Part shown: positions 7,538 through 64,000 of the stretch, piece after piece
Numbering within the stretch: the first letter of the stretch is position 1
Layout of the letters: every line of letters begins with the position of its first letter
Origin: Sinohyriopsis cumingii
Lineage: Eukaryota > Mollusca > Bivalvia > Unionida > Unionidae
NCBI GenBank assembly: GCA_028554795.2
Contig: CM068825.1
Coordinates: 158,229,053 to 158,293,052 of the forward strand
DNA length: 64,000 nucleotides
Reading direction: 5' to 3'
The notes under the pieces: model-generated
Seen by the model: only the letters and a program-made list of their open reading frames with translations
Database searches by the model: none
Told to the model about the DNA's origin: nothing
Made by a program: the position numbers and the translations under genes

Positions 7538-7538
<1 letters not shown>

Positions 7539-9917: not shown

Positions 9918-9989
9918 GACTGCGACTTTAATAGCACCCGCAGAAATATTGTTTAACGCCAGTTTTTATTCTTTGGCTTTATTGAAGTG

Positions 9990-10480: not shown

Positions 10481-10482
10481 TC

Positions 10483-11955: not shown

Positions 11956-11959
11956 TGCA

Positions 11960-12530: not shown

Positions 12531-12531
12531 T

Positions 12532-13020: not shown

Positions 13021-13499
13021 ACAAAAAGTACCAAAATGAGCTAACCCAATTAGAGTAAATCTTGGTCGGTTAGAGGCTTTGGTTTGACGTTATTGACCTT
13101 GTATTTTCACTTTCTTCGTATGAAGTTTTATTTTCAAAGAAGACTTGCTCCAAAATTGGTCTGTTCACCCTCCCTGTGGCTGGCCTCCAAGTCAAATCGT
13201 GACCTTCTTTTAATATTCCATCTGGCGATTCTTTCTCCTAGTGTAGATTGATCGCATTCAAGTCATGGCTTAGATCCACGTCGGCGCGTTGAAGATTCGT
13301 TTACATTTTATACGCGAGATATTATTTGTAAAATGCAGTTTTGATGCCCATTATAGATTCTTCGGCAGGCTTCGGTTGCTTATCATGCAGACGTATGTCT
13401 AGCAGTCTTCCAGGCCGCAATAATTGTACTCAGATTATAGATTTCGCCATGATACTTACTACACGGTACTCCTCCACCCCAGTTGATTTGTTAGCGCGG

Positions 13500-14725: not shown

Positions 14726-14737
14726 GTACCTGGCCAC

Positions 14738-14975
14738 TAGTGGCCTAGTGGTCTAAAGCGCTCACCGTTCCTGATCACTGCCATCTCACCTCTGTCTGCG
14801 TGGGTTCGAGTCCAAGGCTCGGCATGCGTGGTTACGTGGGAAAGCCTGCCAGTAGCTTCTCGTGGGTCGGTGGTTCTTCCCTGGGTTTTCCAGGGTTCTT
14901 CCTCCACTAGTTATACTGGCCCCCATGTATAGTCTATCCTGTGCTCAAAAATGGCGTTAAACCCTAAAACAACAA
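14738..14975 (+). mobile_element. SINE-A copy 1 (tRNA-headed), complete
   Basis: A 238-bp element with a tRNA-like head: box A TGGCCTAGTGG and box B GGGTTCGAGTCC. A family-specific body follows (cctgccagtagcttctcgtg and other shared phrases) and a tail of ctaaaacaacaa. It is flanked by a perfect 12-bp target-site duplication, GTACCTGGCCAC, at 14,726-14,737 and 14,976-14,987, which fixes both ends. The perfect duplication indicates a fairly recent insertion mobilised by a LINE. Confidence 0.95.
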
Positions 14976-16160: not shown

Positions 16161-19100
16161 GTACACGAACATGGAAATACATTGAATTAGGAGACATGAT
16201 TTTGTTTGTTCGTAGATATTTGTTTTTTTTTGGCGTCGAGCACTAAAATATAAATAACATATGATATGTCTTACATTGTAGGACTAGGTCGGACATGGGA
16301 CAGGCACTTGTTTTAGAAAACATAGCGACCCTACCCCGTGTCTCAGCATGCTTACAGTACATTTCATTTGTATTGTATTCCATATAAAACGGTATGCGGA
16401 GAACTCGCCCTGGACTAGGCATAGCACGTGTTGATTTTGTTTAGGTGCTATGTCTTACTATCCAAATAACGGCCTTGTATATCGTGTTCCGATGTCGTTG
16501 ACATTGGAATGAGTAATCAAAGTTTCAGGAACATCTCACACATTTGGCAGCCTATATCGACACTCTTCCACTAATTACCGCTCCGGTGGCCTAGTGGTCA
16601 GAGAGTCCGCCTTGGATGCGGGAGGTCATGGGTTCGATCCCTGGCCGAGTCATACCAAAGACTTACAAAAATGGTACTAACAGGTGCCTCGCTCGGCGCT
16701 GAGCATTAAGAGGTTAGTGTTAGGACTGGTCGGCCTGGTGTTAGGATAATGTGACTGGGTGGGACATCTTGCTACATGTCTGCGGCATGATGCCCCAGTG
16801 CTAGACATCACTATAAGCTGCCACATTGCAGACATCATAGCGATATGACTGAAAAATTGTTAAAGCTACATTAAAAATCCAAATCACACTCACTTCCACT
16901 AATTTATGTGTAATTAATGTACTTACTGTGCTGTCTTTATCCTGGCAGAATGAAAATATGCTACTTGCAGATGGACGCATTTTTATGTTCTGTTGACATA
17001 CATCTGAATTTGTTGCAATGCGACAGTAGTCGAGGTATGCTGAAGTAAGTTCAATTAGGTACATGTTGGAGTTAAGTTTCTTGAACGAAATGAACCATTG
17101 CTTTCAGTTCCAATAGGCATAATATATTTTTTATTCATTTCGTTGAAGAATAATATTTCAACTTAACCCGATTTCAGCATTCCTGGCTTTCATCGCCTTC
17201 CAGCCAACTGAAATGTAGGCCAACGAAAGTTGAAAATAGGTCCATTTCTTTTGTGAGAATTTGAATTTATTAGAGAAAAGACATCAGAATAAGTAAAGTC
17301 TGACTAAAACATTATGACTTTACTTTGTAGAAAAGCGTCGCTGTTTTAGTTGTTAGTTTTTTTTAAATATTTCTGAAAATGTGACTTTCGTAATAATGTT
17401 AATCGACATCAAAAGATGCTACACAGTGCTGTTAGTTAGGCTGTAAGACCTTGACGCCCACAACATAAATATCAGCATCAGGTCTTACACGTAGGACTAG
17501 CCGTGGGAGAACTTGCCCCTGGGACAACACATCCTGGGAAAACTCGCCCCAACATATCTGGAGAAGTTGCCCCATAGTCATTGGAGAAGTCGCCCCAATT
17601 GGTTGGAGAAGTCACCCCAAAACTTGTCACCCAGATAACCTTTTAATAACAGAATTAAATCATCTTTTATGTGATTCATATTTAGATTTTTATATATACG
17701 CAATCACAAAAGAGATATTAACTGGTAATCATAAAAAGCAATATCATAGTAATATTTCTAAGGATGAAATTAAGTCTTTATATAATCTGATGAGTGATGA
17801 CAGTATAGTGATTAAAACGGATGATAAGTTATGAACACTGACAAAAAAGAAGAAATAAACTAAATGATGGGTGTAGTACAAGTGATCTTTCAGAAACCGT
17901 GCAAATTTTGCGCATTAGCCATGATGATGAACTCGGTAGCGACCACATTTCCTGAGTAGGTGTCAGCGATGCTTTTTATCGAGTTCAAGTATCATTCGTC
18001 AGTGGTTAGCAAATCTCAATGAACAATCAGATTAAATTGTTCAGTTAGAGAGATGATAATATAACCCTTTGGCTTATTGACTGTCATCGCCAATTCAGTC
18101 GATTTCGGGTTATAGAGGTCCATGCCATAAAGTCATCTCAGGATGACTTAGGTCATTAGGTTGGAACCCTTTCATATATAAAAGCTGCAGACATCACATT
18201 ATGCTTACACCCTCTCTATTTTTCCAAATAAAATGCATCTAATGATTTGAAGAGCAGAGCAAAAGGGACAGATAACACTTTTTTTCGTTAAGTCCAGAAG
18301 CGGAGTTGATCAAATGAAAAAGTTGAAAAATTTCAAATTTGATAGATTTAATAAGTTATTAAGTTAAAGAAAAACAACAATAAGTAAAACCTTAACAACC
18401 ATGTGGCAACATCTCAGAATTACTATATGTGATCCTTGGGGCGACTTCTCCAGGCGAAGTGGGTGACTTCACCGACCACCATGGGTCGACTTCTCTCAAC
18501 ACCTGGGACGAGTTCTCCCAGGGCGAGTTCTCCATGGGGCGAGTTCTCCGTTATTCATAATAAACATGCAAGGCATTGGTTGTGGTTAATGATTTATTTT
18601 ATTTCTGTTCATCAAATCCCCCAAGGGGCTCCGAGTGGTCTAAAGCGCTCACCATCACGGATCATTGCCATCTCACCTCTGTCTGCGTGAGTTCAAGTCT
18701 CAGGCTCGGCTAACGTTGGTACATGAGAAAGCCTGCCAGTAACTTCTCATGGGTCGGTGGTTCTTCTGGGATTTCCAGGGTTCTTCCTCCACCAATTATA
18801 CTGGCCACCATGTATAGCCTATCTTGTGCTGAAAAATGGCATTAAACCCTACAACAACAACAACAAATCCCCCAAAGTAATGGGTATTTCGACGTGACTT
18901 CTGATGGGAGGCATTCTAGCCCTACAATTTATGACTGAGGCCTTGATATTTATGTGTTGGGCATTTTACGACAATCTTATATTAGACTGCATGGCATATT
19001 TGTACTTAACCCCAACCTTCCTGAACTTAAATTTTATGCCCCAGGTCTTAAAAGCACTTTTTTGACCTTGACGGATAATAGAGTTCATTAACTGGCCTTT

Positions 19101-22100: not shown

Positions 22101-25100
22101 ATTTGTACATCACCTGAGCCACATGGATAAATTTGACTGGTTTAAACATTGATCAGAGAAATTAGACTGTAGAAGGCCTTTAAGCATGCAAATATAGTAC
22201 TGTAGTCTTCTTCTACACCTTCTTAATCTTCTTTATTTTCTTCTTCTTTAAAAAACCAGAAACAAATGATGTTTAACAATGGAAACATTGTGGCTTTTAT
22301 TTATTTATTTTCTTCAGGTACCAGATACATCACTAATCATAGAGGAGATACCAGATGTCTCATGCAAGCCTGAAGACATGTTGAGGGAGGATTTTGTTAA
22401 GGATTATCAGTCAAAAGATGATTTTGTCATTCCATCATTAGATAGACTGAATCAAATGAACCATGAAGAATTAAGTGCAATGTATCACAGGTAAGAATAA
22501 TATCCAACTGAGAAATTATTTTTGAAGATTGCATCCTTGAAGAAGAAAGGATTCCTAATTTGATTATTAAATATGAAATTGTTGTTGTTGTTGTTGTTCT
22601 AGGGTTTAACGCCATTTTTCAGCACAAGATAGGCTATACATGGCGACCAATATAACTGGTGGAGGAAGAACCCTGGAAAACCCAGGGAAGAACCACCGAC
22701 CCACGAGAAGCTACTGGCAGGCTTTCCCACCATACCCACATTAGCTGAGTCTTGGACTCGAACCCATGCAGACAGAGGTGAGATGGCAGTGATCCAGAAC
22801 GGTGAGCGCTTTGGACCACTCAGCCACTCGGGGCCCCTTTGAAATAGTATTGAGCTTGAATCACATCATGGTAGACAGCTTAATTCATATTAACAGAGCA
22901 GTTTGGACTAGTTTATATTGAAGAACAACATTAGAAACTTAAAGAGTTGTAAATTTTAAATGAAAAATAAAACCAATTGGACTTACGATTCAACTTCATG
23001 TGTGACATGAATATAAGAAAGGAAATGGAGCTATACATGTATTTTGGTCACATGTAATAAATAAGTACCATCAGAACTTTGTATGATACAGATATATATT
23101 TTCAAATGATGAAATTTATATTACTTTCCTTTTTAGTTAAATTAATTTCAGCTTCAACCGAAACTTTGGTAGGGGTATATATCATGAGTCAAAATAAACC
23201 ATTCTTTGTGACTTTGTTGTCCATATTTCACTGTATGGTGACCTGCATGATTTTCTTGCTGAGCACCAGACTGATCTCAAAAGAGTGTAATAAACCTGAT
23301 TCAGAAACCAATTCAGAAACATAAGCACAGGGCAAAATTAGTGTACATTTTACCTCATCTTTGCTAGCCAAGGTTCCAGTGTGATAACTCTATTTACACC
23401 ATGGTGTATTGAGCAGACTTTTCTGTACTTCAGGTCTGTGAATTTCATTGGATGTGACACATACAATCAAACTTAAGTTGTTCAGATTTGAACACTGTTC
23501 CTACATGATCAAGACAAAAGGAGCACACAACTTGAATGGACTGATAAATAAGGAATTTTCTAGTGCCGGTCTGTGTTCATACAAATACCTTTCACTCAAA
23601 TATACCCATAATGGCTTCCCTCTGGTACATAGTCATACTTTTGATGTTAAACTTCCAAAGTATCTTTTTTACATCTGTTAACCCCACCATTTTAGGCCAA
23701 TGTGCAATGCACCATGCAATTGGTTAGTCGGCATTACATACTAAGGGAGGCAACTCATGAAATCCAATAGATGTTGCTTGTACAAAGCAACAATATATCT
23801 GTTCGATCCGCCAAGGTGTAGATAGGATTATCGTATTGAAACCTTGGCTAGCGAAGATGATTATACCTGATCCAAAACCCAAACCAAAAATATTTTATAT
23901 GGATATCATAAAACACTGCAGAGTGCTTTAGACCTGATCCAAAACCCAAACCAGAAATATTTTGTATGGATATCATAAAACACTGCAGAGTGCTTTAGAC
24001 CTGAACCAAAAAACAAACCAGAAATACAAGCCCTATTCATGGATATCATAAAACAGTATGGAGTCCATTAGATATTTTGTCATGCACAGATCGAGTGCAA
24101 CAAACCTGATTTAAAAACCAAAACAGAAACATAAACACTGTACAGCATTGCTATCATGAATGCATTGTAGTATACACAGAGTGCAGTAGACCTGAATGCA
24201 TGAACACTGTAGTGTGCAGTGATGTCATGAATGCATTGTAGTATGCACAGAGTGCAGTAGACCTGAATACATGAACACTGTAGTGTGCAGTGATATCATG
24301 AATGCATTGTAGTATGCACAGAGTGCAGTAGACCTGAATACATGAACACTGTAGTATGCACAGAGTGCAGTAGACCTGAATACATGAACACTGTAGTGTG
24401 CAGTGATATCATAAATGCATTGTAGTATGCACAGAGTGCAGTAGACCTGAATACATGAACACTGTAGTATGCACAGAGTGCAGTAGACCTGAATACATGA
24501 ACACTGTAGTGTGCAGTGATGTCATGAATGCATTGTAGTAAGCAGTAAACCTGAATACATGAACACACTACAGAGTGCATTAGACCTGAGTACATGAGCA
24601 CACTACAGTGCATTAGACCTGAATTCATGAACACACTCTTGTATTCAATAGACCTGAATACATGAGCACACTTCAGAAATGCAGTAGACCTGAATACATG
24701 AACACACTACAGAATGCAGTAGACCTGAATACATGAACACACAGTAGTATGCAATTAACCTGAATACATGAGCACACTACAGAGTGCATTAGACCTGAAT
24801 ACATGAACACTTGTATGCAATAGACCTAAATACATGAGCACACTTCAGAATGCAGTAGACCTGAATACATGAACACTTGTATGCAATAGACCTAAATACA
24901 TGAGCACACTTCAGAATGCAGTAGACCTGAATACATGAACACACAGTAGTATGCAATAGACCTGAATACATGAGCACACTACTGAGTGCATTAGACCTGA
25001 ATACATGAACACACAGTAGTATGCAATAGACCTGAATACATGAGCACACTACTGAGTGCATTATACCTGAATACATGAACACACTCTTGTATGCAGTAGA

Positions 25101-26704
25101 CGTGAATATATGAGCACACTTCAGAATGCAGTAGACCTGCATACATGAACACACAGTAGTATGCAATAAACCTGAATACATGAGCACACTACAGAGTGCA
25201 TTAGACCTGAATACATGAACACTTGTATGCAATAGACCTAAATACATGAGCACACTTCAGAATGCAGTAGACCTGAATACATGAACACACAGTAGTATGC
25301 AATAGACCTGAATACATGAGCACACTACTGAGTGCATTAGACCTGAATACATGAACACACTGTAGTATGCAATAGACCTGAATACATGAACACACTACTG
25401 AGTGCATTAGACCTGAATACATGAACACACAGCAGTATGCAATAGACCTGAATACATGAGCACACTACAGAGTGCAGTAGACCTGAATAAATGAACACAG
25501 AGTAAAGTGCATTAGAACTGATTCATAAAACAAAACATACATGAACACCACTGATATCATGAATGCATTGTACATTTGCATTCTTTCATAAACTGTGATG
25601 AAACTTGGTATACATTATCAGTAACAGGTGAAGATATTCATATTGTGTTCTTCAATGAGTTATTCATGAACCATGCCCTAGGCCTTTCCGCTACTCATTT
25701 CCAACTCACGGTTTATTGTACAACTGAAAATTTATGGGGAAATTCACCCCTGCGTCTTAAAATAGGAATGATTTAACAAAGAAATAAAAGTCGGGCTTGT
25801 AGACATGATTTGCACACATTTTGGTTTGTTTTACATATTCTTTTAATATTTAAAATGAATGTCACAATTGTACAACCTAGAATAGACATTTGACACTATT
25901 TAAATATTAGACTCTTGTTGAGTTCTGTATTCTATGTATTACTGAGTTGTAGTTTTAGATTCTGAAGCCAAAGACTATTGAATCTTAAGCTACTGCACAG
26001 CTCTACAGCTGTAATACACGGATCCCCACAAGCAGGTGTCAGTAATAATTTTGATATTCAAAATCAGCCTCAGCAAAAAGTTTAAACCACAATTCACTGA
26101 ACACTTCCAGTGATGTCGTATCAAAACAAGACCGAAGCAGGGAAAAACATTTCAAGGAGATTACCGTCATTCATCATGTAATTAATGTAATTTACAAAAT
26201 GGTTCTTTTTTTGATATATGCCTTAACATTTACTATTTTATCATTGATATCCAAAGGTGATGAGGAAAATGTTGGAACATAAATTGAAACCACAGCATCA
26301 TTGTGATGTATTGCTATGATGTCATTCATAGTCGTTTTCTACAGATGTAAGCAATCAATTTGATTGGTTTAGTTAAATCATTATTGCTTTCAGTGTAACC
26401 TAGCAACAGTGATAAAGTACATGTCTGAGTTATGCAGGTACTACATCTGACAAAGCCAGGTTTTTAACCAGTGGGAAAAGGTTTTACAGATGTGAAGCAT
26501 GATAAAATAAATCATACCTGCACAACTAGTGCCACAGGACTGGATGAAAAAGTTTTCAGGAATTAGAAACATTAGATGAAGTCAGTAATATCTGCCAAGT
26601 TAGCTTTCAGGACAACATTTCGTCAAAAGAGCTGGGACTAGTTGCCCGCTTAAGATTGATCATGTGTGTATACATATATACATGTGTGTGTGTGTGTGTA
26701 TATA

Positions 26705-32700: not shown

Positions 32701-35700
32701 TAACTGACCCAAAGTCAATTGGAATAAAGTGCCTTGCCTAGGTACACACCTCAGTAACTGACCCAAAGTCAGTTGGAGTAGAGTGACTTGCCTAGGCAAA
32801 TGCCTCAGTAGCTGACCCAAAGTCAATTTCATATTAATTAGTATGTTTTTATTTGACTAGAATACACATATTTCAAATACTCAGTAACATTTTGTTAAAC
32901 AGTATAAATTGTATATAGATTTAATTTTTATATCTTGGCTGCATTAACAGAAGTGGGTGCATTGGCTGGCATATCCATCCTGAAATCTACTAAACATATT
33001 AATATGCATTTTTAATCATATTTTAGTGTTATGAAAGTGATTTTGCTTTTGCTTTAGAGGGTTGTTTTTGCAAATTATTGGCAACTTTTGTCAGTGAAGT
33101 TAGCATGAATATTTATTGGCTGCATGATCTAGGTAGACTGCTTATGGCTTTTTTATATATATACATATGTAGAAGACTTGAATAGATTTTCAAGCCATTT
33201 GAGCGAAATTTTACTTTTATCTTTACATTTCACTATTTAGGATGAGATTTTTAATGCTAACTTTATTAGCCTGATCATTTAGAAACCATATCATCTAGGC
33301 AATCAAATTGGTATGCATTTTACATTCATAGATAGATGACCTGATAAGATTGTAATGCCATATAAATGATTTTTCGCTTTTTTATTTAATTTTGTAATTT
33401 CAATATATGGATTTTAACATTGATAATAGAAACTTTACATAATTGCTTAGAAACCACTTGACCTAGGTGAATACTTGCATGATGTGATTAGGTTCTGTTG
33501 TAATTCAGGTAAAAGAAAATTGAATGGTTTATCTTTCTTTGATACTTTTTGGAGAAGATTTATAATTTTTTATTTGAAAAACATTTTTAGCACAATTACT
33601 GTAAATAAAAGCCCACTTAATTTATGCAAATGAAAATTGAAAGGCTGAGTTTTTATCTCTGTGTATATGATCTGAACAGACTTCTGTGCTAGTAAAAAAA
33701 GTTTGATGTTAAATTGTGTTGACATTTTTAGCACTTGTGGCATCCATTTTTGTACTTAAGTCAGTCTATTCCTTAATTACTCAGCAATGAAGTTTATTCA
33801 GTCTGATTAAATCCCATTTCTTTTGAAAATATTAACTTATTTTTTTCAGGATCAATAATGATTTTTCATTTGATGATGACATGGTCAAGTTTTACCACTG
33901 CGAGGTGCACTCATTTGACCCCAGGTAAATTTACAATTGCTGTTATACGGTATATCTGGTTAATTTTACTTAGGTAGCATCATGCTTCCTCCCACGAACC
34001 CTCACTCCTTCATGTGGAGAAATAGCTTACATTTGAACTACTCAAGATGAGTGGTGTCTCCCTTCCATCCCATCACTTATTGAGATCTCAGCAAAGGCCA
34101 CTCCTGTGGCCTAGTGGTTAGAGCATTCGCCTTGGATACAGGAGGTCGCTGGTTCGAACCCCTGCTGAGTCATACCTAAGACTTCTAAAAATGGTACTTA
34201 ACAGCTGCCTTGCAAGGTGCTCAGCATTACGAGGTTAGTGTTAGGACTGGTCGGCCTGGTGTCAGAATAATGTGCCTGGGTGTGACATGATGCTACATGT
34301 ATGCGGCATGATGCCACAGTGCTAGACATCGCTATAAACTGCCAACTGCAGGCATCATAGAAATATGACTGAATTTTTTTTAAAGTTACATTAATAATCC
34401 GAATCACACACACACCTACTCAACAAAACTTTTCTTCAAACCTTGCTTCCATTGTAGTATATTTGTTGTAAAGACTTTCTGTGATTACAGACAGTAACAT
34501 TAAAGTGATTAGATTATACTGTGTGTTCTTATGTTACATGTTTAGGCTCAAATAAACAGTAACACAAGAAAGAGTGAAAACAACAAGCTTTGAAAAAATA
34601 CAGTAATTTTTTTCCCTGGAAAAATTCTGTGAAAATTAAAAATAATTGGAAATCTTAATAAAAAAATGTTCTCCTGATTTCAAGTTTGAATCCCGACAAA
34701 GAATCCAAGATGGAAGATGATGATGTATGCTGCAGTCTGTAGTGTTGAAGTCTACAGTTCCTTGTAGAAACAAGAATTATCAGTCCGATTTCTGATAGGT
34801 GAATAAATTTTTTATAGAAAACTGTCCTTTTTGAAAAAATTTACATGAGGACACATATTTTCCAGAAAAATAACAGAATTAATCCTTTTGAATCCAAATA
34901 ATTTGGAATAATTCCAATCCAAGTAATTTGAAATAACTCCAAAGAGCACAATATACAACTTCATGTGTAACAGCTGAGCTTCTTCTGAGAATAATTTTCC
35001 AAAATAGAGGTTGTATGGTCTTCAAAAACACAAACAAGGGGTCACGTGATCATCTTCTCGAAGCTTATAGAAAATAAGTACTTGTTAAAGATCATGTCTA
35101 CCCAGTGTGATCCTGATGAAAACCAATCATTTTGCTCTAAGAAATAAAAAATTTAAAAAATTGTTTACATCTTAAAGACAAAGTCCCATCATGACCTCGA
35201 CAACAACCAATCATTTTAAAATAAAGATAGAACTTGTTTACGTGGTTGTCACAAATTTATAAACAAGGTCAGGATTTAGATCAAGACCTAGTGTTTATAA
35301 ACTAACAGTCAAGGTCAAATTATTTTCTGAAAAAAGTACATATATCATCTCTAGAAAATAAATTTGCATTACAATAGCCTGTAAAAAAAATAAAAATTTA
35401 AAACTGACAAACAATTAAATTGAAATGAATATATATTAAATCAGATACAAGTAAATCAAATATACGTAACAGTGTGATCAATAGTAATTAAGAAATGATT
35501 AAAGATGTTAACAGCTTATAGTCAGATTTCGAAAGAGGTCAAGTAGCATAAAACAGTTCACATATTTTGGATTCAATCAGCAAGCTTGGTTTGGCTTCAG
35601 TATTTAAAGTTTGCTGTGATGGGTTTATACTGTGTATGATCAGGAATAATTCTGAAAGGATTAAAGACATTAATGGATCTTGGTTGGATTAGTCATTCCT

Positions 35701-38700: not shown

Positions 38701-40229
38701 GTGGCCTTTTATTGTCTTGTTCATTTGTCCATGTTCATTATCACTACTCTTCCTAAGCTAGTAGGAGGCCACAATATAAGCATCTTGAAAATCTTGCTAT
38801 TGCTATTTTTCCAGTAATGATGGTACTAACAATATCACTAAAAGACTTTGATGATATCTAGTTGGATCTAAATGAAAAAGGTGCTGAACTGAATTACAAT
38901 ATGGCTGCCATGGTTGCCATCTTGAAAATTTCGTTATTGCTGCTTCTCTTGAATAGGTTGTCTTGTTGACATGAGGTTTTCACTGAAAGACTTGTTTTGT
39001 TGCATCATGGGTCTTAAATTAAAATGGTGCAGATCTGACATACAAAATAGCCACCACTAATACACCAGAATGGGTGATCATATTGACATGGGGTTTTCAC
39101 CAAACAACATCTATGATGTCTTTTTGGTTTTAAAGAAAATAGTTCTGATCTGGCATCCAATATGGCCACCATGGGAGCCATATAGAAAATCTTACCTCTA
39201 CCACACCTAGTTGGTCCTAAATGAAAATGATGTTGTTGTTCTTGTTATTCGGTTTAATGCCATTTTTCAGCACACGATAAGCTATACATGGTGGCCAGTA
39301 TTAATGGTTGAGGAAGAACCCGGGAAAACCTCGGAAAGAACCACCGACCCACGAGAAGCTACTGGCAAGCTTTCTCACTTAACCACATTGGCTGAATCTG
39401 AGACTCGAACTGGCGCAGACAGATGTGAGATGGAAATGAAAATGATGCTGATCTGACATCAAATATGGTCACCATGAAAATCTTGTTATTGCCACTCAAC
39501 CTGAATGGATGGTCTTATGGATATGAAAATGGTTGCAATCTGACATAAAATATCTTCACCATAACATCCATATTCAAAAATGTATCTCTGCTCCACTTGT
39601 ATGAATGGTTGTAGTGTTTTCACTCTAAGATTTCATATGATGTTCAGTTGGTCCTAATTGGTCCTGTGGGGCCATCACAGAAATCATGTTATCACATCCA
39701 ATATATCCACCACTGCAGCTAATTTGAAAATCTTGCTATTGCTGAAGAGATGGTTTGAGCACTGAGCAGTTAAAAGGAAGGAATGGTTTTATCTTGAATA
39801 TCTGGAAACTCATTTTTCCCAGTAGAGTGTCGGTTCCTCCAAGGGAATGTAGTCAAGTTATACAATCCCAAACAGAAATTATAAACCTTTTAACCTGTGC
39901 TATTTTGTCATCTGCAGAGAATAATAGATGTGTTGAAGATTGACATTGAGCGGTCTGAGTGGGAAGCCCTTCCAGAGATGCTTCAGTCGGGAGTGCTGAA
40001 ACAAGTGCGACAGCTGTCCATTGAGCTTCATTTGCATATTGCCCCACCCCAGCACAAAGACGTCCCAAGGCCAAAATATCTACTGGCACTTAATATCCTT
40101 AGACAGTTGTATCAGGAAGGCTTTAGAATTTTCTGGACACATCCTAATCCTTCATGCATCTTTTTATCCAGATGTAGAAATTTAAGAAGAGCTAACTGTC
40201 ATGAGGTCAACTTCTTAAAAGTTTCTTGA
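16047..40229 (+). CDS. METTL24-like FkbM-type methyltransferase, six coding exons
   Basis: Six coding exons join in frame into 321 codons: 16,047-16,160; 22,318-22,490; 28,273-28,425; 33,850-33,924; 37,689-37,827; 39,918-40,229. Every junction has AG before and GT after, with matching phases. Residues 1-10 are hydrophilic, 11-31 form one membrane span (type II signal anchor), and NGS at 32-34 is a possible glycosylation site. The catalytic-type domain follows: GGWEVC at 117-122, YSVGINND at 144-151 (motif-I-like), VHSFDPS at 166-172, and [12 protein letters not shown] at 222-233, the FkbM/METTL24 signature. Cys105, 122 and 141 could form disulphides. It is probably a Golgi/ER-lumen enzyme that uses S-adenosylmethionine; its substrate is unknown. 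The start at 16,047 is preferred because the in-frame ATG at 15,999 overlaps a likely acceptor. Confidence 0.88.
16577..16893 (+). mobile_element. SINE-B copy 1 (tRNA-headed), complete
   Basis: A 317-bp element with box A TGGCCTAGTGG, box B GGGTTCGATCCC, a body with ggactggtcggcctggtg, and a 3' tail of attaaaaatccaaatcacac. A perfect 11-bp target-site duplication TTCCACTAATT flanks it at 16,566-16,576 and 16,894-16,904. It lies in intron 1 of the methyltransferase gene, same orientation. Confidence 0.95.
16905..17500. other. Intronic DNA, nothing recognised
   Basis: Ordinary AT-rich intron 1 sequence; no open frame or repeat family stands out. Confidence 0.6.
17501..18550. mobile_element. 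1.05-kb foldback-type element with iterated ends
   Basis: The left end (17,501-17,632) carries five spaced copies of a motif close to GGAGAAGTCGCCCC, and the right end (18,434-18,550) carries about five copies of its reverse complement, GGGGCGAGTTCTCC and variants. The two clusters therefore form long inverted ends made of short iterated motifs, as in foldback elements or elements with transposase-binding subterminal repeats. The 800 bp between them are AT-rich and show no transposase, so it is non-autonomous. A related single motif occurs at about 16,397. No clear target duplication was found. It lies in intron 1. Confidence 0.6.
18625..18863 (+). mobile_element. SINE-A copy 2, complete
   Basis: A 239-bp copy of the same family as 14,738-14,975, ending in (acaaca)n, flanked by a perfect 12-bp duplication CAAATCCCCCAA (18,613-18,624 and 18,864-18,875). 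Its head shows GCTCCGAGTGGTC in place of the usual box A. Confidence 0.95.
18876..21600. other. Intron 1 interior with a weak dispersed repeat
   Basis: No exon is recognised. Between about 20,160 and 20,710 phrases such as gccatcaaatatggctacca resemble the degenerate repeats at 38.7-39.7 and 49.2-49.7 kb, and the end near 20,690 (cacttgggcctcttgtttta) looks like a repeat terminus. The remainder is ordinary AT-rich intron. Confidence 0.45.
21618..22045. repeat. Direct repeat pair plus 30-bp inverted repeat
   Basis: A stretch of about 85 bp at 21,618-21,710 recurs at 21,875-21,955 with few changes (shared attcattcacaatatgact). The second copy runs into an inverted repeat: arms of 30 bp at 21,949-21,978 and 22,016-22,045 with one mismatch and a 37-bp spacer. 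The arrangement looks like a small decayed or solo foldback element in intron 1. Confidence 0.85.
22318..22490 (+). CDS. METTL24-like exon 2
   Basis: Residues 39 to part of 96, an acidic stem region between the membrane anchor and the catalytic-type domain. The acceptor is a T-rich tract ending in ttcttcag; the donor gtaaga follows two bases of a split Arg codon (phase 2). Confidence 0.85.
22580..22839 (-). mobile_element. SINE-A copy 3, reverse orientation
   Basis: About 260 bp. It starts with the (gtt)n complement of the tail and ends with the reverse of the tRNA head (box B complement ggactcgaaccc). A short TGAAAT duplication (22,574-22,579 and 22,840-22,845) is a possible target duplication. 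It lies in intron 2, opposite to the gene. Confidence 0.9.
23355..23860. mobile_element. 506-bp MITE with long inverted ends
   Basis: The first about 46 bp (starting tcatctttgctagccaaggt) match the reverse complement of the last about 46 bp (ending accttggctagcgaagatga) at roughly 80 percent identity. Flanks ttttacc and ttatacc may be a 7-bp target duplication with one change. The interior encodes nothing recognisable, so it is non-autonomous. It lies in intron 2. Confidence 0.7.
23868..24070. repeat. About 66-bp tandem repeat, three copies
   Basis: Three copies containing tggatatcataaaacactg, directly right of the MITE and leading into the larger array from 24.1 kb. A degenerate fourth copy may lie at 24,100-24,160. 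Confidence 0.9.
24170..25520. repeat. Large minisatellite (unit about 36-40 bp)
   Basis: Dozens of copies of a unit built on agacctgaatacatgaacac followed by a variable cactacagagtgcatt or cagtagtatgcaat segment. On the left (24,170-24,540) a longer higher-order unit with gtgcagtgatatcatgaatg is also repeated. Long minus-strand open frames here are by-products of the repeat. It lies in intron 2. Confidence 0.97.
25521..26655. other. Intron 2 interior, nothing recognised
   Basis: Ordinary AT-rich DNA without a convincing exon, motif or repeat family. Confidence 0.6.
26660..26826. repeat. Compound (TG)n-(TA)n microsatellite
   Basis: A short TG run at about 26,683-26,698 is followed by nearly 90 bp of TA, then mixed ATG/TATA units. 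It produces false Ile-Tyr frames on both strands. Confidence 0.95.
26876..28151 (+). mobile_element. 1.28-kb DNA transposon with perfect 18-bp inverted ends
   Basis: The sequence TATATCAGACATGATTTT at 26,876-26,893 is the exact reverse complement of 28,134-28,151. If the outer TA is the target duplication, the element is 26,878-28,149 with ends TATCAGACATG. The interior holds a BED-like zinc-finger coding fragment (27,203-27,448) and a G-rich right part (a run of Gs near 28,040). It is probably a deleted DNA transposon; the superfamily is not settled because a TA duplication suggests Tc1/mariner while the zinc finger suggests hAT. It lies in intron 2. Confidence 0.7.
27203..27448 (+). pseudogene. 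BED-like zinc-finger fragment of a DNA transposon
   Basis: Eighty-one codons with WKWEWLERK near residues 12-20, then CDHCNKDL (Cys-x2-Cys) near residues 41-48, and [12 protein letters not shown] (His-x5-His). The order Cys-x2-Cys, about 18 residues, His-x5-His, preceded by an aromatic patch, fits BED-type fingers at the N-terminus of hAT-family proteins. Downstream plus-strand frames to about 27,700 contain Lys-rich helical phrases but stops intervene, and no transposase catalytic domain follows. It lies between the 18-bp inverted ends and is probably a remnant of that element's protein. Confidence 0.45.
28273..28425 (+). CDS. METTL24-like exon 3
   Basis: Residues 96 to part of 147. It begins the catalytic-type domain with GGWEVC and the motif-I-like YSVG, and contains three cysteines and an NSS site. 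Acceptor tgttcag; donor gtaaga; phases 2 and 2. Confidence 0.88.
28490..30200. repeat. Degenerate tandem repeat, unit about 140-160 bp, with a nested 40-bp array
   Basis: Successive blocks share the order: gattggctgaacttgttacc, then ccatatttctgatctgattt, then tatcaagatcttggatgatt, then attaatgagtgagattcagg. About ten diverged copies can be followed. Near 29,660-29,930 a subsegment has expanded into a regular array of about 40-bp units (gatttaccactctcaagaca). It lies in intron 3. Confidence 0.8.
30269..31705. mobile_element. 1.44-kb TA-flanked element with CACC ends
   Basis: The left end CACCACTCCCTCAATAAATC matches the reverse complement of the right end, CACCTCTCCCTCGATAACTC, at 16 of 20 positions. 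TA dinucleotides flank both sides (30,267-30,268 and 31,706-31,707), as for Tc1/mariner-type insertions. The interior holds open frames of up to about 116 codons on both strands, but none shows a transposase motif. It interrupts a short-unit minisatellite: the left flank at 30,238-30,266 and the right flank from 31,708 carry the same gagatatacatgtattagt unit. It lies in intron 3. Confidence 0.65.
31708..32370. repeat. Minisatellite of about 19-bp units
   Basis: Units of gagatatacacatattagt and variants with catgtatt, about 35 copies. A fragment of the same array lies left of the CACC-ended element at 30,238-30,266, so the array predates that insertion. Confidence 0.95.
32385..32830. repeat. 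Minisatellite of about 56-bp units, eight copies
   Basis: Unit with ttggagtaaagtgccttgcc, then taggtacacacctcagtaac, then tgacccaaagtcaa. The minus-strand open frame here is a by-product. It lies in intron 3. Confidence 0.95.
32831..33849. other. Intron 3 end, nothing recognised
   Basis: Ordinary T-rich intron sequence leading to the acceptor tttttcag of exon 4. Confidence 0.6.
33850..33924 (+). CDS. METTL24-like exon 4
   Basis: A 75-bp exon for residues 147-172, containing INND and the VHSFDP acidic motif that in SAM enzymes contacts the cofactor ribose. Acceptor tttttcag; donor gtaaat; phases 2 and 2, both matching the neighbours. Confidence 0.88.
34096..34418 (+). mobile_element. SINE-B copy 2
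   Basis: About 323 bp, box A TGGCCTAGTGG and box B CTGGTTCGAACCCC, tail with aatccgaatcacacacacac. Flanks ctcagcaaa (34,087-34,095) and ctcaacaaa (34,419-34,427) are a probable 9-bp target duplication with one change. It lies in intron 4. Confidence 0.92.
34535..35480. repeat. Dispersed repeat R, copy 1 (about 0.95 kb)
   Basis: Shares an extended alignment with 41,693-42,905. It begins tgttacatgtttaggct, then aaacagtaac, a block with gatgatgtatgctg near 34,717, a block ending attgtttac near 35,165, and a right end acaattaaattgaaatg to aaatatacgtaac. No protein or terminal structure was recognised. It lies in intron 4. Confidence 0.75.
35481..36180. other. Intron 4 interior, nothing firmly recognised
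   Basis: Open frames of up to 100 codons (35,752-36,054 plus) have no motif and no splice context that fits the gene. Confidence 0.5.
36185..36570. repeat. 33-bp minisatellite, eleven to twelve copies
   Basis: Unit aatccaggcaatgatgagga followed by ctgccacaaatat. Because 33 is divisible by three, several frames on both strands stay open; the best plus frame would encode [11 protein letters not shown] repeats. One unit is partly deleted (about 36,385-36,410). Intronic position and repeats in every frame argue that it is not a gene. Confidence 0.95.
36571..37688. other. Intron 4 end, nothing recognised
   Basis: AT-rich intron sequence to the acceptor of exon 5 (tttttggtcag). Confidence 0.6.
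37689..37827 (+). CDS. METTL24-like exon 5
   Basis: Residues 172-218: [11 protein letters not shown], then [11 protein letters not shown] and [13 protein letters not shown], a block typical of METTL24-type proteins. The donor gtgaga follows a complete codon (phase 0). Confidence 0.9.
37828..38690. other. Intron 5 start, nothing recognised
   Basis: The exon frame stays open past the donor to 37,989, but the following exon joins in phase at 37,827, so the extension is read as intron. Confidence 0.5.
38690..39755. repeat. Degenerate tandem repeat, unit about 160 bp
   Basis: About six diverged copies share: ctgacatccaatatggccac, then catcttgaaaatcttgttat, then ttgaatggatggtcttgttg, then gttttcactgaaagac, then agttggtcctaaatgaaaat. 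The same family is at 49,170-49,710, and weaker at 20.1-20.7 kb. SINE-A copy 4 is inserted in it. It lies in intron 5. Confidence 0.8.
39233..39433 (-). mobile_element. SINE-A copy 4, reverse and 5'-truncated
   Basis: A 201-bp copy lacking about the first 40 bp of the tRNA head, flanked by a perfect 14-bp duplication AAATGAAAATGATG (39,219-39,232 and 39,434-39,447). The 5' truncation with a perfect duplication is what incomplete target-primed reverse transcription leaves. Confidence 0.95.
39918..40229 (+). CDS. METTL24-like exon 6 (last coding exon)
   Basis: Residues 219-321 and the stop. It carries [12 protein letters not shown], the clearest family signature, then QLSIELHLH, where acidic and His residues are conserved in FkbM relatives, and a C-terminal [10 protein letters not shown] segment. 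Acceptor ctgcag. Confidence 0.92.
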   Translation, partial: RIIDVLKIDIERSEWEALPEMLQSGVLKQVRQLSIELHLHIAPPQHKDVPRPKYLLALNILRQLYQEGFRIFWTHPNPSCIFLSRCRNLRRANCHEVNFLKVS

Positions 40230-42326: not shown

Positions 42327-42572
42327 GTACTTCAAGCATGGCCTCAGTTTCACTCAATAAATCTACTCTAAGAAAGAATTAAAAGCTAAGATATAAAAAG
42401 TTGTTTACTTATGAAGTAAGTTAGAAACTAGGTCAGCATTAGATACAAAGTTTCTATATTAGTGTTTACGAAAAACTGAACTGAATTTCTTTAAAATATA
42501 AAATCCAGTAAATAAAATTACATTACAATAGCATGTAATGAATAAAAAAAACTGTAAAACTACCAAAGAAAC

Positions 42573-42862
42573 GACCACTCCAATGGCCTAGTGGTTAGAG
42601 CATCCACCTCAGATTTGGGAGGTTGCAGGTTCAAACCTCTGCCAAATGATACCAAAGACTTACAAAAATGGTACTAACTGCATTAAGAGGTTAGTATTAG
42701 GACTGGTCGGCCTGGTGTCAGGATAATGTGACTGGGTGGACGTCATGCTACATGTCTCCAGCATGATGCCCCAGTGCTAGACATCACTATAAACTGTCAC
42801 ACTGCATACATCATAGCGATATGACTGAAAAATTGTTAAAGCTACATTAAAAATCTAAATAC
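42573..42862 (+). mobile_element. SINE-B copy 3
   Basis: Diverged copy (ccactccaatggcctagtgg, box B aggttcaaacct, body tgccccagtgctagacatca), ending attaaaaatctaaatacac. It is older than copies 1 and 4 by its substitutions and has no clear target duplication. Inserted in repeat R copy 2. Confidence 0.9.
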
Positions 42863-42905
42863 ACAACAGACAATTAAATTAAATCAAATATACATAAGTC
42901 AACCC

Positions 42906-44204: not shown

Positions 44205-44435
44205 GACTGATGTCTTTCATAAATAACCAATGTGCAGTGATTGGCATAATGCAGTCAGTTTTTCTAAAGCACTGATGTCTTTCATAAATAACCTAAGACC
44301 AATGTGCAGTGATTGGCATAATGCAGTCAGTTTTCTAAAGCACTGATGTCTTTTCATAAATAACCTAAGATCAGTGTGCAGTGATTGGCATAATGCAGTC
44401 AGTTTTCTAAAGCACTGATGTCTTTTCATAAATAA
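44205..44435. repeat. About 72-bp minisatellite, left part
   Basis: Three copies of a unit containing gtgcagtgattggcataatg, then cagtcagttttctaaagcac, then tgatgtctttcataaataac. The array continues at 46,839-47,020 on the other side of the CMC-like transposon. Confidence 0.95.
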
Positions 44436-44565
44436 CACTGGACAACAAATTTTTACAAAAGTCATGTTACTGAAATAAAATTAGTCAATTCTTATCAATT
44501 TTTATGTGCTGAACACGAATATGACAGTCAAATTGCAAAATTGGCTCTAGTTTTTTTGTAATCTG
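44436..44565 (+). repeat. Left inverted repeat of the CMC-like transposon
   Basis: Begins CACTGGACAACA and contains tgctgaacacgaatatgac and attggctctagtttttttg, matched by the complement of the right end with gaps and substitutions. Confidence 0.85.
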
Positions 44566-44652
44566 CAAGAAATTAATGTTTACATAACGAAATGCATTCC
44601 AATAGTAAAAGGTCAACTGTAATAGCCTACCTATAAAAAATCAAGTCATTGA

Positions 44653-46341
44653 CTACATCTTAGATTTCTTCGCCTGTCTCTTGTACAGCTGTTCGGGAGC
44701 ATCTCTGAGGAGTGTCCAGCAGTAGTCAGCCAGCATTGTAGTGGACCATTTTCCCTGGTATCTTTGTTCCATTGTTGCGATATCTTGATGAAAACGTTCG
44801 CCGTGTTCATCACTAACAATACCACAGTTGCTAGGAAAGAAATCCAAATGGGAATGAAGGAAGTGAATCTTTAGAGACATATTGCAGCCAAGTTTCTTAT
44901 ACTTCATCAACATGTCTTCTACTAGTTCCTTATAGTTTTCTGCCCTAACATTTCCGAGGAAGTTTGTAGAAACTAGGCGAAAAGCATTCCATGCTTGTTT
45001 CGCGTCACCTTCCAGCAAGTTGTTGAACCGGTCATCTTTGAAAAGCTCTCGAATCTGAGGACCCACAAAAACTCCCTCTTTAATCTTTGCTTCGCTGAGT
45101 CGAGGGAATTTTTCATGCAGGTATCGGAATGCTGGCAAAGTCCGGTCAATGGCTTTCACGAAGTTCTTCATCAAACCTAGTTTGATGTGAAGGGGTGGTA
45201 GCAAGATTTTCTGAGCCTCAACCAGAGCTGGGTGTTGGATATTCTTCTCTCCAATGGCTACATTCTGCCTGTGAGTCCATTCCTTCCTCATGTAGTGCAT
45301 TTCCCTTGCTCGGCTATCCCACTCGCATAAGAAACACATGTATTTTGTATATCCTTGCTGCAGTCCCATTAAAAGGGCAACTACCTTCAAATCACCATAG
45401 CGGTGCCAGCTGTACTTGTTATACTCAATGGAATTCAGTAGCTGCCTTAAGTTATCGTATGTCTCTTTCATGTGGACAGCATACGCTACTGGAATAGATG
45501 GAAGAATGTTTCCATTGTGCAAAAGCACAGCCTTGAGACTCAGTTTCGAAGAGTCCACAAATAGTCTCCATTCTTGTGGGTCATGAGTGATTTTTAAAGC
45601 ATTCATGAGGCCCTCAATATCGGAACAGAATATCAGATTACTTTTCTTTCTGAAGAAAGGCTCCAATTGCTGGTGGCGCTTTCGATATGCAGTAATTGTG
45701 ACATCTTCTTCTAGAAGATTCCATTGTTGGAGTCTTGATCCTAGCAATTCTGCCTTGTTCTTTGATAAGTCCAAATCACGAATCAGGTCATTTAGTTCTT
45801 CCTGTGTTATTCTGTGTGGGGTTGATGATGCACCACAGTGAAAATCTGGATCACTGCATGCTGATGGACCAGGAGAAGAACAGGTCGACTCACCTTTGTC
45901 TTCGTCAGATGAATCAAGAGAATATTCTGCTGGAGGTTCTGGAATAGGAAGTCCCTCACCATGTGGAACTGGTCTCAATGCAGACGGAATGTTTGGGTAG
46001 ACTATTCTCGACTTCTTTCGCTTCGTTATTCCGCCGGAAAGAGGAGGAACCAAGCAGAAGTAACAGTCATTTAGGTGGTTGCTTGGCTCTCTCCACGCCA
46101 TTGGGACTGCAAACGGCATTGATGACCTTTTGCAATTCAACCACTGTGAAAGCTGTGTTGTACATGTAGCACAGCATATATGCGGAGCCCAAGGCTTGTC
46201 TTGGTCACCAACCTTGCATCCGAAGTAAAGATGATATGCCTTCTTCACTTGAGAATTGATACTTTTCTTCTGGTTGGCAAATGTCACTTCCCCACAAATA
46301 TAGCAAAAATTGTCCGCGGTATTAACACACTTTCGAGGCAT
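44653..46341 (-). CDS. CMC-type transposase-like protein, 562 aa, intact
   Basis: A single unbroken frame of 562 codons from the ATG at 46,341, without introns. Residues 13-60 hold CYIC, a Cys at 42 and HICCATC, with a further CYFC at 93-96: an N-terminal zinc-binding, probably DNA-binding, domain. Residues 135-175 are Ser/Pro/acidic and likely flexible. The core follows: FVDSS (Asp263), YGDLK (Asp317), CFLC (Cys336 and 339), PPLHIKLG (His385), HFLHSH (493-498) and DEHGERFHQ (Glu512 or Glu515). Asp-Asp-CxxC-His-Glu in this order is the pattern of CMC and related DDE transposases, which cut and join element ends. Similar proteins appear in many invertebrates as uncharacterised predictions, from memory. 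It is flanked by the CACTGG inverted ends, which supports a transposase role. A domesticated host gene is the alternative. Confidence 0.8.
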   Translation of the reverse strand: MPRKCVNTADNFCYICGEVTFANQKKSINSQVKKAYHLYFGCKVGDQDKPWAPHICCATCTTQLSQWLNCKRSSMPFAVPMAWREPSNHLNDCYFCLVPPLSGGITKRKKSRIVYPNIPSALRPVPHGEGLPIPEPPAEYSLDSSDEDKGESTCSSPGPSACSDPDFHCGASSTPHRITQEELNDLIRDLDLSKNKAELLGSRLQQWNLLEEDVTITAYRKRHQQLEPFFRKKSNLIFCSDIEGLMNALKITHDPQEWRLFVDSSKLSLKAVLLHNGNILPSIPVAYAVHMKETYDNLRQLLNSIEYNKYSWHRYGDLKVVALLMGLQQGYTKYMCFLCEWDSRAREMHYMRKEWTHRQNVAIGEKNIQHPALVEAQKILLPPLHIKLGLMKNFVKAIDRTLPAFRYLHEKFPRLSEAKIKEGVFVGPQIRELFKDDRFNNLLEGDAKQAWNAFRLVSTNFLGNVRAENYKELVEDMLMKYKKLGCNMSLKIHFLHSHLDFFPSNCGIVSDEHGERFHQDIATMEQRYQGKWSTTMLADYCWTLLRDAPEQLYKRQAKKSKM

Positions 46342-46454
46342 TACTGTTCTTTATTGTACGTAAATGGATAAAATAATAAGTTTTATGTAACAGTAGCTTG
46401 AACTGTCTCGCACAACGTCTAAAATATTTTAAATGCTGAACCTATCTGATTGGG

Positions 46455-46580
46455 CTTTATATAGTACACTGCTTACGTCAGCTTCAGCAGCCGCCTGGCA
46501 TTAGTATAATAGGCCTACACATGTATAGTACACTGCTGACGTCAACTTACTTCAGCAGCCGCATGGCATTAGTATTGCAT
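46455..46580 (-). promoter_or_regulatory. Candidate promoter of the transposase, with duplicated CRE-like block
   Basis: On the minus strand a TATATAAAG box lies at 46,463-46,455, about 115 bp before the start codon. Upstream of it a block of about 50 bp (tatagtacactgct to ggcattagta) is present twice with a 64-bp period (46,460 and 46,524). Each copy has a CRE-like site, TTACGTCA at 46,473-46,480 and the full palindrome TGACGTCA at 46,537-46,544. Function is inferred from the motifs only. Confidence 0.5.
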
Positions 46581-46699
46581 TGCATCAGAAAATGATGCAA
46601 TCAACTGTGGATGATGTGAGCATGATGGTATTATGCAATGTTACATCATTATTCCGGATGTTGCTGCAGTCCTACTGGAGAAATTTACACAGTGAAACA

Positions 46700-46835
46700 T
46701 AGAAAATGAGGTATATGAATATCTTCAAAACGAGAGCCAATACAAATTTTTCACGGTTATATTCGTGTTCGGCACACCAAAATACTACAGATTAGGGCCT
46801 TTTCAAGTCAGTAATGATTTCACTGTTGACCAGTG
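46700..46835 (-). repeat. Right inverted repeat of the CMC-like transposon
   Basis: Ends with ttgaccagtg; its complement shows CACTGGTCAACA, then GCCGAACACGAATATAACCG and ATTGGCTCTCGTTTT, in the same order as the left end. Confidence 0.85.
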
Positions 46836-46838
46836 TAA

Positions 46839-47020
46839 CCTAAGATCAATGTGCAGTGATTGGCATAATGCAGTCAGTTTTCTAAAGCACTGATGTCTTT
46901 CTTAAATAACCTAAGACCAATGTGCAATGATTGACATAATGCAGTCAGTTTTCTAAAGCACTGATGTCTTTCATAAATAACCTAAGACCAACGTGCAATG
47001 ATTGAAATAATGCAGTTGAA
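46839..47020. repeat. About 72-bp minisatellite, right part
   Basis: Two to three more copies of the unit seen at 44,205-44,435, separated from it only by the transposon. Confidence 0.95.
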
Positions 47021-51372: not shown

Positions 51373-51383
51373 TTGACTAAGTA

Positions 51384-51705
51384 GTGTGTGTGTGTGTGAT
51401 TTGGATTTTTGATGTAGCTTTAACAATTTTTCAGTCATATTGCTATGATGTCTGTAGTGTGGCAGTTTATAGTGATGTCTAGCACTGGGTCATCATACTG
51501 CAGTCATGTAGCATGATGTCCCACCCAGTCACATTATCCTGACACTAGACCAGCCAGTCCTTACACTAACCTCTTAATGTTGAGTGCCTAGTGAGGCAGC
51601 TGTTAGTACCATTTTTTTAAGTCTTTGATATGACTTGGACGTGGCTGGAAACATGGACCCACTGCATCTGTGGTGGACACTCTGACCACTAGGCCACCAG
51701 AGTGG
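51384..51705 (-). mobile_element. SINE-B copy 4, complete, reverse orientation
   Basis: A 322-bp copy starting with the (TG)n complement of the tail, then atttggatttttgatgtagc, and ending with the reversed head (ctaggccaccagagtgg). A perfect 11-bp duplication TTGACTAAGTA lies at 51,373-51,383 and 51,706-51,716. Confidence 0.95.
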
Positions 51706-51790
51706 TTGACTAAGTACTAAATGGAATTAATGCCTCTGTGCAGATATGCATGGACTGTGAAAGAGAATTTGTAGCATGTTAACCTCAATG

Positions 51791-59675: not shown

Positions 59676-59710
<35 letters not shown>

Positions 59711-60235
59711 ATTTGGATTTTTAATTAGCTTTAACAATGTTCCAATCATATCGCTACGATTTCTGCAGCGTGGCAGTTTAAAGTGATGTCTAGCACTGTG
59801 GAATCATGCCGCAGATATGTAGCATGATGTCCCACCCAGTCACATTATTCTGACACCATGCCGACCAGTCCTAAGACTAACCTCTTAATGCTGAGCGCCT
59901 AATAAGACAGCTGTTAGTACCATTTTTGTAAGTCTTTGGTATGACTCGGCCGGGGTTCGAACCCACGACCTCCCGCATCGGGGGGGGGGGGGGGGGGGGC
60001 ACTATAACCGCTAGACCACCAGAGCGTTCGTACCGGTTCTGGTGTAGAGTCAATAAAATCATCCCTATGAGCGCCCCAGTCCATCAACTGGCCGACCTTT
60101 CTGTCTTGATCTATGAGGTGAAACAGTTGACCACAGTTACCATCAAACGCTACTTGTCCATGATATCAGACACATTCCGGCATCATGACAGACCCGATAT
60201 CTATCATCATAAAGATTCTTAAGATCTTTTTGTCA
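55985..60235 (+). mobile_element. DIRS-type retrotransposon fossil
   Basis: A GC-richer plus-strand stretch with, in order, a gag/ORF1-like region (about 56.0-57.5 kb), a reverse-transcriptase region around 57.88-58.1 kb (KWRLVIS and RTFLRFF phrases), an RNase-H-like phrase near 59.0-59.1 kb, and a tyrosine-recombinase N-terminal part at about 59.6 and 60.03-60.22 kb (STIKGYRS-like TIKRYLSMIS). This order is that of DIRS elements. It is heavily broken, with well over ten disruptions, and clearly old. A SINE-B inserted later (59,670-60,030). Terminal repeats were not found and the ends are approximate. Confidence 0.65.
59670..60030 (-). mobile_element. SINE-B copy 5, inserted in the DIRS fossil
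   Basis: A 361-bp reverse copy starting with (TG)n and ending with the reversed head (cgctagaccaccagagcg). A perfect 8-bp duplication TACCGGTT lies at 59,662-59,669 and 60,031-60,038. A run of 20 G at 59,980-59,999 sits where other copies have a few bases. Confidence 0.95.
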
Positions 60236-62866: not shown

Positions 62867-64000
62867 CTACGAGAGACGATGGCATAGCTCCAAAGTACGC
62901 TTTTGCTTATCCTTCTTTTTAGCTCTCTTTTCAGCTTGCTTTATTCTTCTCTTTTCCTCTGCGTTTTGAACTCCCTGCCTGACAGCTAGACGCCAGCTGG
63001 AACGGTTGTTTTCACAGCTCTCCCAGTCGTTGACATTGATGTTTGCTGTCTTCATATCCTTCTTGCAAACATCTTTGTAGTGCAGATGTGGTCGTCCAGT
63101 TGGTCGTGCAGCTTCTGCTAACTCCCCATATAACAGGTCCTTGGGAATGCGACCTGGGTCCATTCTCTTGACATGGCCGAGCCAGCGAAGGCGCCTCTCG
63201 CTGAGTATGGAGAACATGCTGTTCATGTTGGCGCGTTCTAGAACCTCTGTGTTGGGTACTTTGTCCTGCCACTGGATGTGCAGAATGCGCCGCAGACATC
63301 TCAGGTGGAAGCTGTTGAGTTTCCTCTCGTGTCTTGCATAGGTGGTCCGTGTTTCGCTGCTATAGAGAAGTGAGCTGAGCACGCACGCTTGGTAGACACG
63401 CATTTTGGTCTTCTCTGTGAGGTTGGGGTTGTTCCAGACCCTCTGGTTAAGTCTGACCATCACTGCTGCTGCCTTGGCAATCCGGCCGCCCACCTCAGAA
63501 TCAATGGAGAGTGAGCTGGAGATGTTAGACCCAAGGTATGTAAAGTTCTCGGCAACTTCCAAATTGTACCCATCGATGGAGACAGAGGGGGGGGGAGTCT
63601 GTGTCCTGTGCCATGACATTCGTTTTCTTCAAACTGATGGTCAGTCCAAATTCCTTACATGCATGGGAGAGGCAGCATACCAGCTGCTGAAGTCCATCTT
63701 CCGTATGTGATGTCAAGGCTGCATCGTCGGCAAAGAGCAATTCACGGATGAGTACCTCTATGACTTTAGTCTTAGCACGGAGACGGGTGATGTTGAACAG
63801 TTTGCCGTCAGCCCTGGTATGGATGTACAGTCCCTCGCTGCAGTCCTTGAATGCGTACTGGAGAAGCATGGAGAAGAAGATGGCAAAGAGCGTCGGTGCA
63901 AGGACACAGCCTTGTTTGACTCCGCTAATGACTGGGAATGCTTCAGATGTTGCGCCATTGAAGCACACTGTGCTGTGCATGTTCTCGTGGAACGACATAA
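62867..64000 (-). mobile_element. LINE, 3' part (reverse transcriptase), runs off the right edge
   Basis: Minus-strand coding for the second half of a non-LTR reverse transcriptase. 63,998-63,525 carries GVKQGCVLAPTLF, the FADD catalytic box (LLFADDAAL, near residues 88-96 of this segment) and FGLTISLKKT. 63,619-62,867 carries the post-RT region (NFTYLGSNISSS, WNNPNLTEKTKMRVYQACVL, RLRWLGHVKRM, RIPKDLLYGEL) and a basic tail. The two frames meet at a run of nine G at 63,587-63,595, where a one-base length change breaks the frame; homopolymer sequencing error is possible. The endonuclease and 5' half lie beyond 64,000. The clade is not assigned with confidence. Similarity to the SINE tails was not found. 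Confidence 0.9.

Follow-up and report, generated by a model that had tools for sequence, protein, structure and literature searches.

A probable Chapaev3-group transposon family with a young burst of near-identical copies in the genome of Sinohyriopsis cumingii

The 64,000-nucleotide stretch of Sinohyriopsis cumingii DNA that was analysed (the window) contains a host tandem array interrupted by a 2.4 kb insertion, which raises the question of what kind of element this is, how it came to be there and whether it can still move. An earlier note on this DNA had described it as a compact CACTA-like transposon with an intact transposase that may be active. The element occupies positions 44436–46835, exactly 2,400 bp, and its ends read CACTGG and CCAGTG. 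The outer 125 bp at each end (44436–44560 on the plus strand and 46711–46835 on the minus strand) form an imperfect terminal inverted repeat of about 120 bp, with 91 identical positions in 107 aligned columns, plus gaps; this alignment scores 34.5, against 15 or less in 300 shuffles. A TAA trinucleotide flanks the element on either side (44433–44435 and 46836–46838). The interrupted host array (44226–47016) has a 71/72-bp period and is divided into the parts 44226–44436 and 46836–47016; when the element and one TAA are removed in silico the two parts are rejoined and the repeat reads through. On the minus strand, a single ATG-initiated and uninterrupted frame (44653–46341) forms a one-exon gene for a protein of 562 amino acids, followed by a stop codon. 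Two copies of a repeat of about 50 bp (46460–46507 and 46524–46575, spanning 46460–46575) lie 5′ of this gene and form a possible promoter or transposase-binding region. The ends, the inverted repeats, the restored host repeat and the unbroken intronless gene are as the earlier note had described them.

The encoded protein combines a Cys-rich N-terminal region with a candidate DDE core, all of the following codons lying on the minus strand. The N-terminal region (residues 5–96, positions 46054–46329) contains ten cysteines (5, 13, 16, 42, 56, 57, 60, 70, 93 and 96) and is a putative zinc- and DNA-binding part. From the order of the motifs, Asp 263 (45553–45555) and Asp 317 (45391–45393) are the candidate first and second catalytic residues. 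These are followed by a C(2)C (CxxC) motif at residues 336–339 (C336 and C339; 45325–45336), an LH motif at residues 384–385 (45187–45192) within PPLH (382–385), and an H(4)H motif, HFLHSH, at residues 493–498 (H493 and H498; 44848–44865). The candidate catalytic Glu is residue 512 or 515 (44797–44808), both of which belong to the sequence DEHGER (511–516). The DDE/CxxC/His arrangement proposed previously is therefore present in the correct order. An RNase H-like fold of the candidate core is suggested by this motif order, and two single-sequence fold predictions gave low-confidence models (mean pLDDT 38.0 and 38.2). A Pfam profile search returned no family up to E 10, in a search where the HMMER filters discard most matches above about 0.1, and an NCBIfam search returned no match. 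The PDB sequence search gave only matches of E 0.43–1.4, which were taken as chance and included none to RAG1 or Transib, and the PHROGs search gave a single irrelevant weak match (E 0.056). No relatives of the transposase were found in the viral contigs, bacterial and archaeal genomes, phages and plasmids that were searched. One viral contig (L001) was considered and rejected, its 8-residue pattern having been matched by chance and its frames resembling phage genes by eye.

One unbroken frame in the window could also belong to a domesticated host gene that merely resembles a transposase, and the earlier note had accordingly expected a transposon to have other genomic copies and a host gene to have none. 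The assembly (2.905 Gb in 1,138 contigs) contains 4,839 exact occurrences of a 35-mer from the left end, 4,831 of an internal 35-mer and 4,972 of a 27-mer from the right end, and each reversed control gave 0. The right ends outnumber the left-end and internal matches by about 140, and the right-end pattern is the shorter one. A plain DNA search, a method which skips very common words, returned at least 38 matches. The left-end and internal counts exclude an isolated element, and the internal count excludes a single-copy gene. If all copies are assumed to be full length, the family would occupy some 11.6 Mb (0.4%) of the genome. Domain searches of this assembly for mollusc haemocyanin and for arthropod cuticle protein each gave 0 matches, as they did in every control genome. 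The open frame is also maintained in all 77 scored protein matches in the genome, which are open over 562 amino acids, these being the best 77 of 9,574 first-look candidates and a biased set. Against a host gene stand about 4,800 dispersed copies; the 51 complete ones that were read lie in flanks of their own, and 49 of them carry a separate duplication (see below). Furthermore, singleton changes in 43 full-length copies are about as frequent in coding as in non-coding sequence (56 per 1,689 and 24 per 711 bases, respectively), which is what neutral decay after insertion would produce. The possibility of a domesticated gene can thus be virtually dismissed.

The completeness of the copies was assessed in the first ~50 Mb of contig C1, using the first 100 matches each of the left, internal and right patterns. 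The spacing comparison covered 94 of the 100 left ends (six beyond the last right end being omitted), 96 of the 100 internal matches and all 100 right ends. A right end is found on the same strand within 4 kb of 91 of the 94 left ends. The spacing is exactly 2,400 bp for 73 of the 94 and within 30 bp of this value for 88, and only two are separated by less than 2,300 bp (1,540 and 2,295 bp). Similarly, a left end lies at precisely the expected distance from 82 of the 96 internal matches, and nine of the 100 right ends are without a left partner. The near equality of left-end and interior counts across the genome argues against many elements having lost internal sequence while retaining both exact ends; exact-match counts and end pairing detect unaltered ends only, and elements with altered ends escape them.

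Three further observations concern the distribution and variety of these sequences in the assembly (G000). The stretch C1:33.4–41 Mb, chosen post hoc, holds 32 of the 100 copies against 14.9 expected, about twice the density of the first 51 Mb. Three copies (L035–L037, on C1, C6 and C13) all have a length of 2,388 bp and perhaps represent a small deletion sublineage that spread itself. Lastly, the amino acid stretch DEHGERFHQD is encoded by clearly different codons in four of 28 matches in one search and in both matches of another (C4:129166776, C6:23598095, C6:163642190, C17:113873113, C6:115589931 and C210:390538), and these matches probably mark a further, related family in this genome, diverged from the first and of low copy number.

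The boundaries and target sites were read from 67 fetched loci (L010–L076), from which eight duplicates and eight loci with one exact end only were removed to leave 51 distinct complete copies. As these were selected by exact ends they provide no independent test of the CAC...GTG termini. They share the boundaries of the window element and differ in their flanks. An exact 3-bp duplication is present in 49 of the 51, the exceptions being L020 and L056, and a 4-bp duplication in none. The duplicated sequence is TTA in 16 copies, TAA in 15 and another sequence in 18; TWA therefore accounts for 31 of the 51, where base composition predicts about 7%. The base 5′ of the duplication is A in 39 copies and the base 3′ of it is T in 38, with the full A-TWA-T arrangement in 15. 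These data also bear on whether segmental or satellite duplication, and not transposition, could have been the chief means of spread. Some copies do lie close together, with seven of 99 gaps on C1 below 20 kb against 3.8 expected, and two same-strand copies only 2.65 kb apart at 17.41 Mb on that contig. However, the flanks differ among the copies read and nearly all carry a 3-bp duplication of their own, which leaves duplication as the main route with hardly any probability and transposition as the preferred reading.

The remaining question for classification is the group to which the transposon belongs. Non-Chapaev3 members of Chapaev generate a 4-bp target duplication; Chapaev in this strict sense was rejected, as none of the 51 copies has one. 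Chapaev as a whole is given a 3–4 bp duplication in the available part of PMC4079192, and Chapaev3 is a Chapaev sublineage within the CMCT clade, for which the available part of PMC12730594 lists D-D-E, C(2)C and H(3–4)H motifs and mostly CA..TG ends. The hallmarks of Chapaev3, as far as the available text of PMC4079192 describes them, are CAC...GTG ends, a 3-bp duplication of TWA type preceded by A and followed by T, a length of 2.3–2.45 kb, in most cases a gene of one exon, and a protein with the motifs C(2)C, LH and H(4)H; a partial source adds a Chapa zinc finger (PMC4411706). The window element has 5′-CAC...GTG-3′ termini with inverted repeats, an exact 3-bp and mostly TWA duplication in its family, and all three protein motifs. 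Its 2,400 bp, 562 residues and one frame fall within the expected 2.3–2.5 kb, about 560 amino acids and mostly single exon. The ten cysteines of residues 5–96 are a putative fit to a Chapa-type zinc finger, by description rather than by a Chapa profile. The A and T neighbours of the duplication are enriched but not invariant, unlike the statement of Zhang et al. (2014), in the part of PMC4079192 available, that A and T always adjoin the duplication and that TWA occurs in all Chapaev3 elements examined; the target site of this family is accordingly less strict than that published.

A CACTA/EnSpm element in the strict sense would share several of these characters, namely CAC-type ends, a 3-bp duplication and the order of the C(2)C and His motifs, H(3–4)H included, which are common to EnSpm in the available part of PMC12730594. 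The termini read CACTGG and not CACTA, but this alone leaves EnSpm possible, since the same partial source accepts CAC..GTG for that group. In contrast, the TWA-rich targets, the size of 2.4 kb and the one short single-exon gene of about 560 residues are the description of Chapaev3 in PMC4079192, as far as it is available. It is therefore the exact 3-bp TWA-rich duplication, the size, the single exon and the combination of C(2)C, LH and H(4)H that favour Chapaev3 over CACTA proper. Pfam includes CACTA transposase models, and none of these matched the protein up to E 10. Taken together, a strict CACTA/EnSpm identity is quite improbable, and the window element is, with high confidence, a copy of a young Chapaev3-group family of the CMC superfamily that has undergone a recent burst, the group being set by published description. 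The proposal of a compact CACTA-like transposon therefore holds in that the element belongs to the CMC grouping of DNA transposons, is complete and was recently active, and is amended in that its hallmarks fit Chapaev3 better than CACTA proper.

Transib elements have a 5-bp target duplication, as opposed to the 3 bp found here, and the PDB search linked the protein to neither Transib nor RAG1. The position of the C(2)C and H(3–4)H motifs between the second Asp and the Glu is nevertheless a feature of Transib/RAG1 as well (PMC12730594, available part). Closer likenesses, again by description in the available part of PMC4079192, are Merrow from sea lamprey (2,451 bp, exons of 78 and 484 amino acids) and Garfield from silkworm (2,289 bp, 556 amino acids), two Chapaev3 elements that resemble the window element in size, CAC...GTG ends, TWA-type duplication and motifs. 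Both differ from its intronless gene in having two exons, and most other Chapaev3 elements in that text appear to be single-exon. The family differs more in scale. Its copies, about 4,800 and mostly full-length, compare with at most a few hundred in the listed rows of Table 1 of the same survey, the highest of which is a lamprey family with >254. MITE derivatives are described there for Chapaev3, whereas few deletion derivatives occur in the window family. No Chapaev3 burst of this scale and purity was recognised in the open-access literature as far as it was available, which is weak evidence. The family thus appears from its sequence to be a new one of a kind, Chapaev3, already known, and what seems unusual is the scale and purity of its burst. 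Elsewhere among molluscs, one recently active CMC insertion is annotated in Octopus vulgaris in the available part of PMC13282606.

The age of the burst depends on how copies are sampled, as those found by DNA or protein search are biased towards the window's own variants or towards the best-scoring proteins. A less age-biased sample consists of the eight internal matches that come first on the map of C1, where the exact 35-mer still mildly favours little-diverged copies. Seven of the eight are complete, each with a 3-bp duplication, and one is truncated; a 565-codon open stretch is present in five of the seven, and stretches of 530 and 559 codons in the other two. Compared with the majority sequence of 43 other copies, the seven show 4–8 differences each, 37 in total, none of which is shared. 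This star-like pattern has a mean divergence of 0.22%. With the substitution rate that PMC13282606 quotes for octopus, which may not be that of the host, this converts to about 0.6 My, and assumed rates of 5e-9 to 1e-9, which likewise may not be the host's, give 0.4–2.2 My. The predominance of complete copies and the lack of shared differences mark the burst as young and as made up of autonomous-type elements, few deletion derivatives being present; it would have started from one or a few source copies within about the past million years. Among the 43 full-length copies of the biased set, three are identical to the majority and the frame is intact in 40 and broken in three. Here 28 of 108 variable sites are common to two or more copies, and ten of them to more than three, so that small sublineages exist and the tree is not a pure star.

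Assembly polishing is able to homogenise high-copy repeats, and near-identity could partly reflect correction towards a repeat consensus, with a burst older than it appears. The small mean pairwise difference (2.98 per 2,400 bases) of 20 full-length copies from the protein search, chosen by best score, is in keeping with this. Nevertheless, the distinct flanks and duplications denote separate insertions, each of the seven map-order copies retains its private differences, and a spacing of exactly 2,400 bp in 73 of 94 end pairs is not a product of polishing. An appreciable contribution of polishing is thus unlikely, and a genuinely young burst remains the preferred explanation.

The window copy is itself a variant. 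It differs from the majority of the 43 full-length copies by four bases, all of which change an amino acid (residues 82, 233, 314 and 315), and the combination of the four sites is present in one of the 43 copies. The adjacent substitutions at residues 314 and 315 directly precede Asp 317, the candidate second catalytic residue, and an exact 31-mer containing both occurs once in the genome. The earlier description of an intact transposase thus applies to the open 562-residue frame, with four residues being of non-majority type. Single variants recur in other copies, which implies that variant copies have been moved. Given the position of the non-majority residues before the candidate second Asp, the window copy is rather probably a derivative that encodes a transposase of reduced or lost function and was mobilised by an enzyme acting in trans. 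The suggestion that the element may be active therefore fits the family better than it does this copy. The family may be active in the present day. The fullest version of this reading, a currently active Chapaev3 family with about 4,800 copies, almost all full-length and autonomous-type, produced within ~1 My and with no takeover by MITEs, is possible but put forward tentatively.

What is observed directly are the footprints of transposition: the ends, the duplications, copies that are dispersed in their thousands, near-identical and mostly full-length, and open frames in most copies read. A mechanism consistent with the family would have the 562-residue protein acting as the cut-and-paste transposase. 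Its Cys-rich N-terminal part would probably bind the ~120-bp terminal repeats and its DDE core, with the CxxC and His motifs, would cut both ends, a catalytic role suggested by the family. Strand transfer would then take place with a 3-bp stagger at AT-rich sites resembling TWA and so produce the 3-bp duplication. If the family is active and free of a MITE takeover, it could represent a very fresh invasion, for example a horizontally acquired one, caught before parasitic deletion derivatives arose; alternatively, the transposase may suppress such derivatives through a strong cis-preference or faithful gap repair. Thousands of near-identical, mostly full-length copies at the onset of decay offer a natural setting in which to learn when non-autonomous derivatives arise and how a host deals with a new transposon. 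No activity assay of a Chapaev3 transposase was found in the literature covered, as far as its text was available, and the majority-type protein is a candidate active transposase of this group.

The remainder of the window contains several unrelated features. A run of separate open frames on the minus strand (7020–13089) looks like a Polinton/adintovirus-like remnant; one of these frames (9144–9599, minus strand) matches the adenovirus-type endoprotease family PF00770 with E 0.086, below the curated cut-off. A repeat of ~320 bp is present in five copies (16577–16904, 34090–34415, 42567–42872, 51379–51706 and 59696–59987) that are 77–90% identical. One of these begins with a predicted tRNA-Pro, and the repeat probably represents a SINE family of tRNA origin. 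Another dispersed repeat, ~245 bp long, occurs at 14732–14975, 18619–18866, 22573–22835 and 39221–39439 (84–90% identical). Large minisatellite arrays with higher-order periods are located at 23861–25529 and 4437–5523. Finally, a 253-codon frame on the minus strand (62867–63628) resembles, on inspection by eye, the end of a polymerase from a non-LTR retrotransposon; its only Pfam match, to DUF6451, is weak and below the cut-off.
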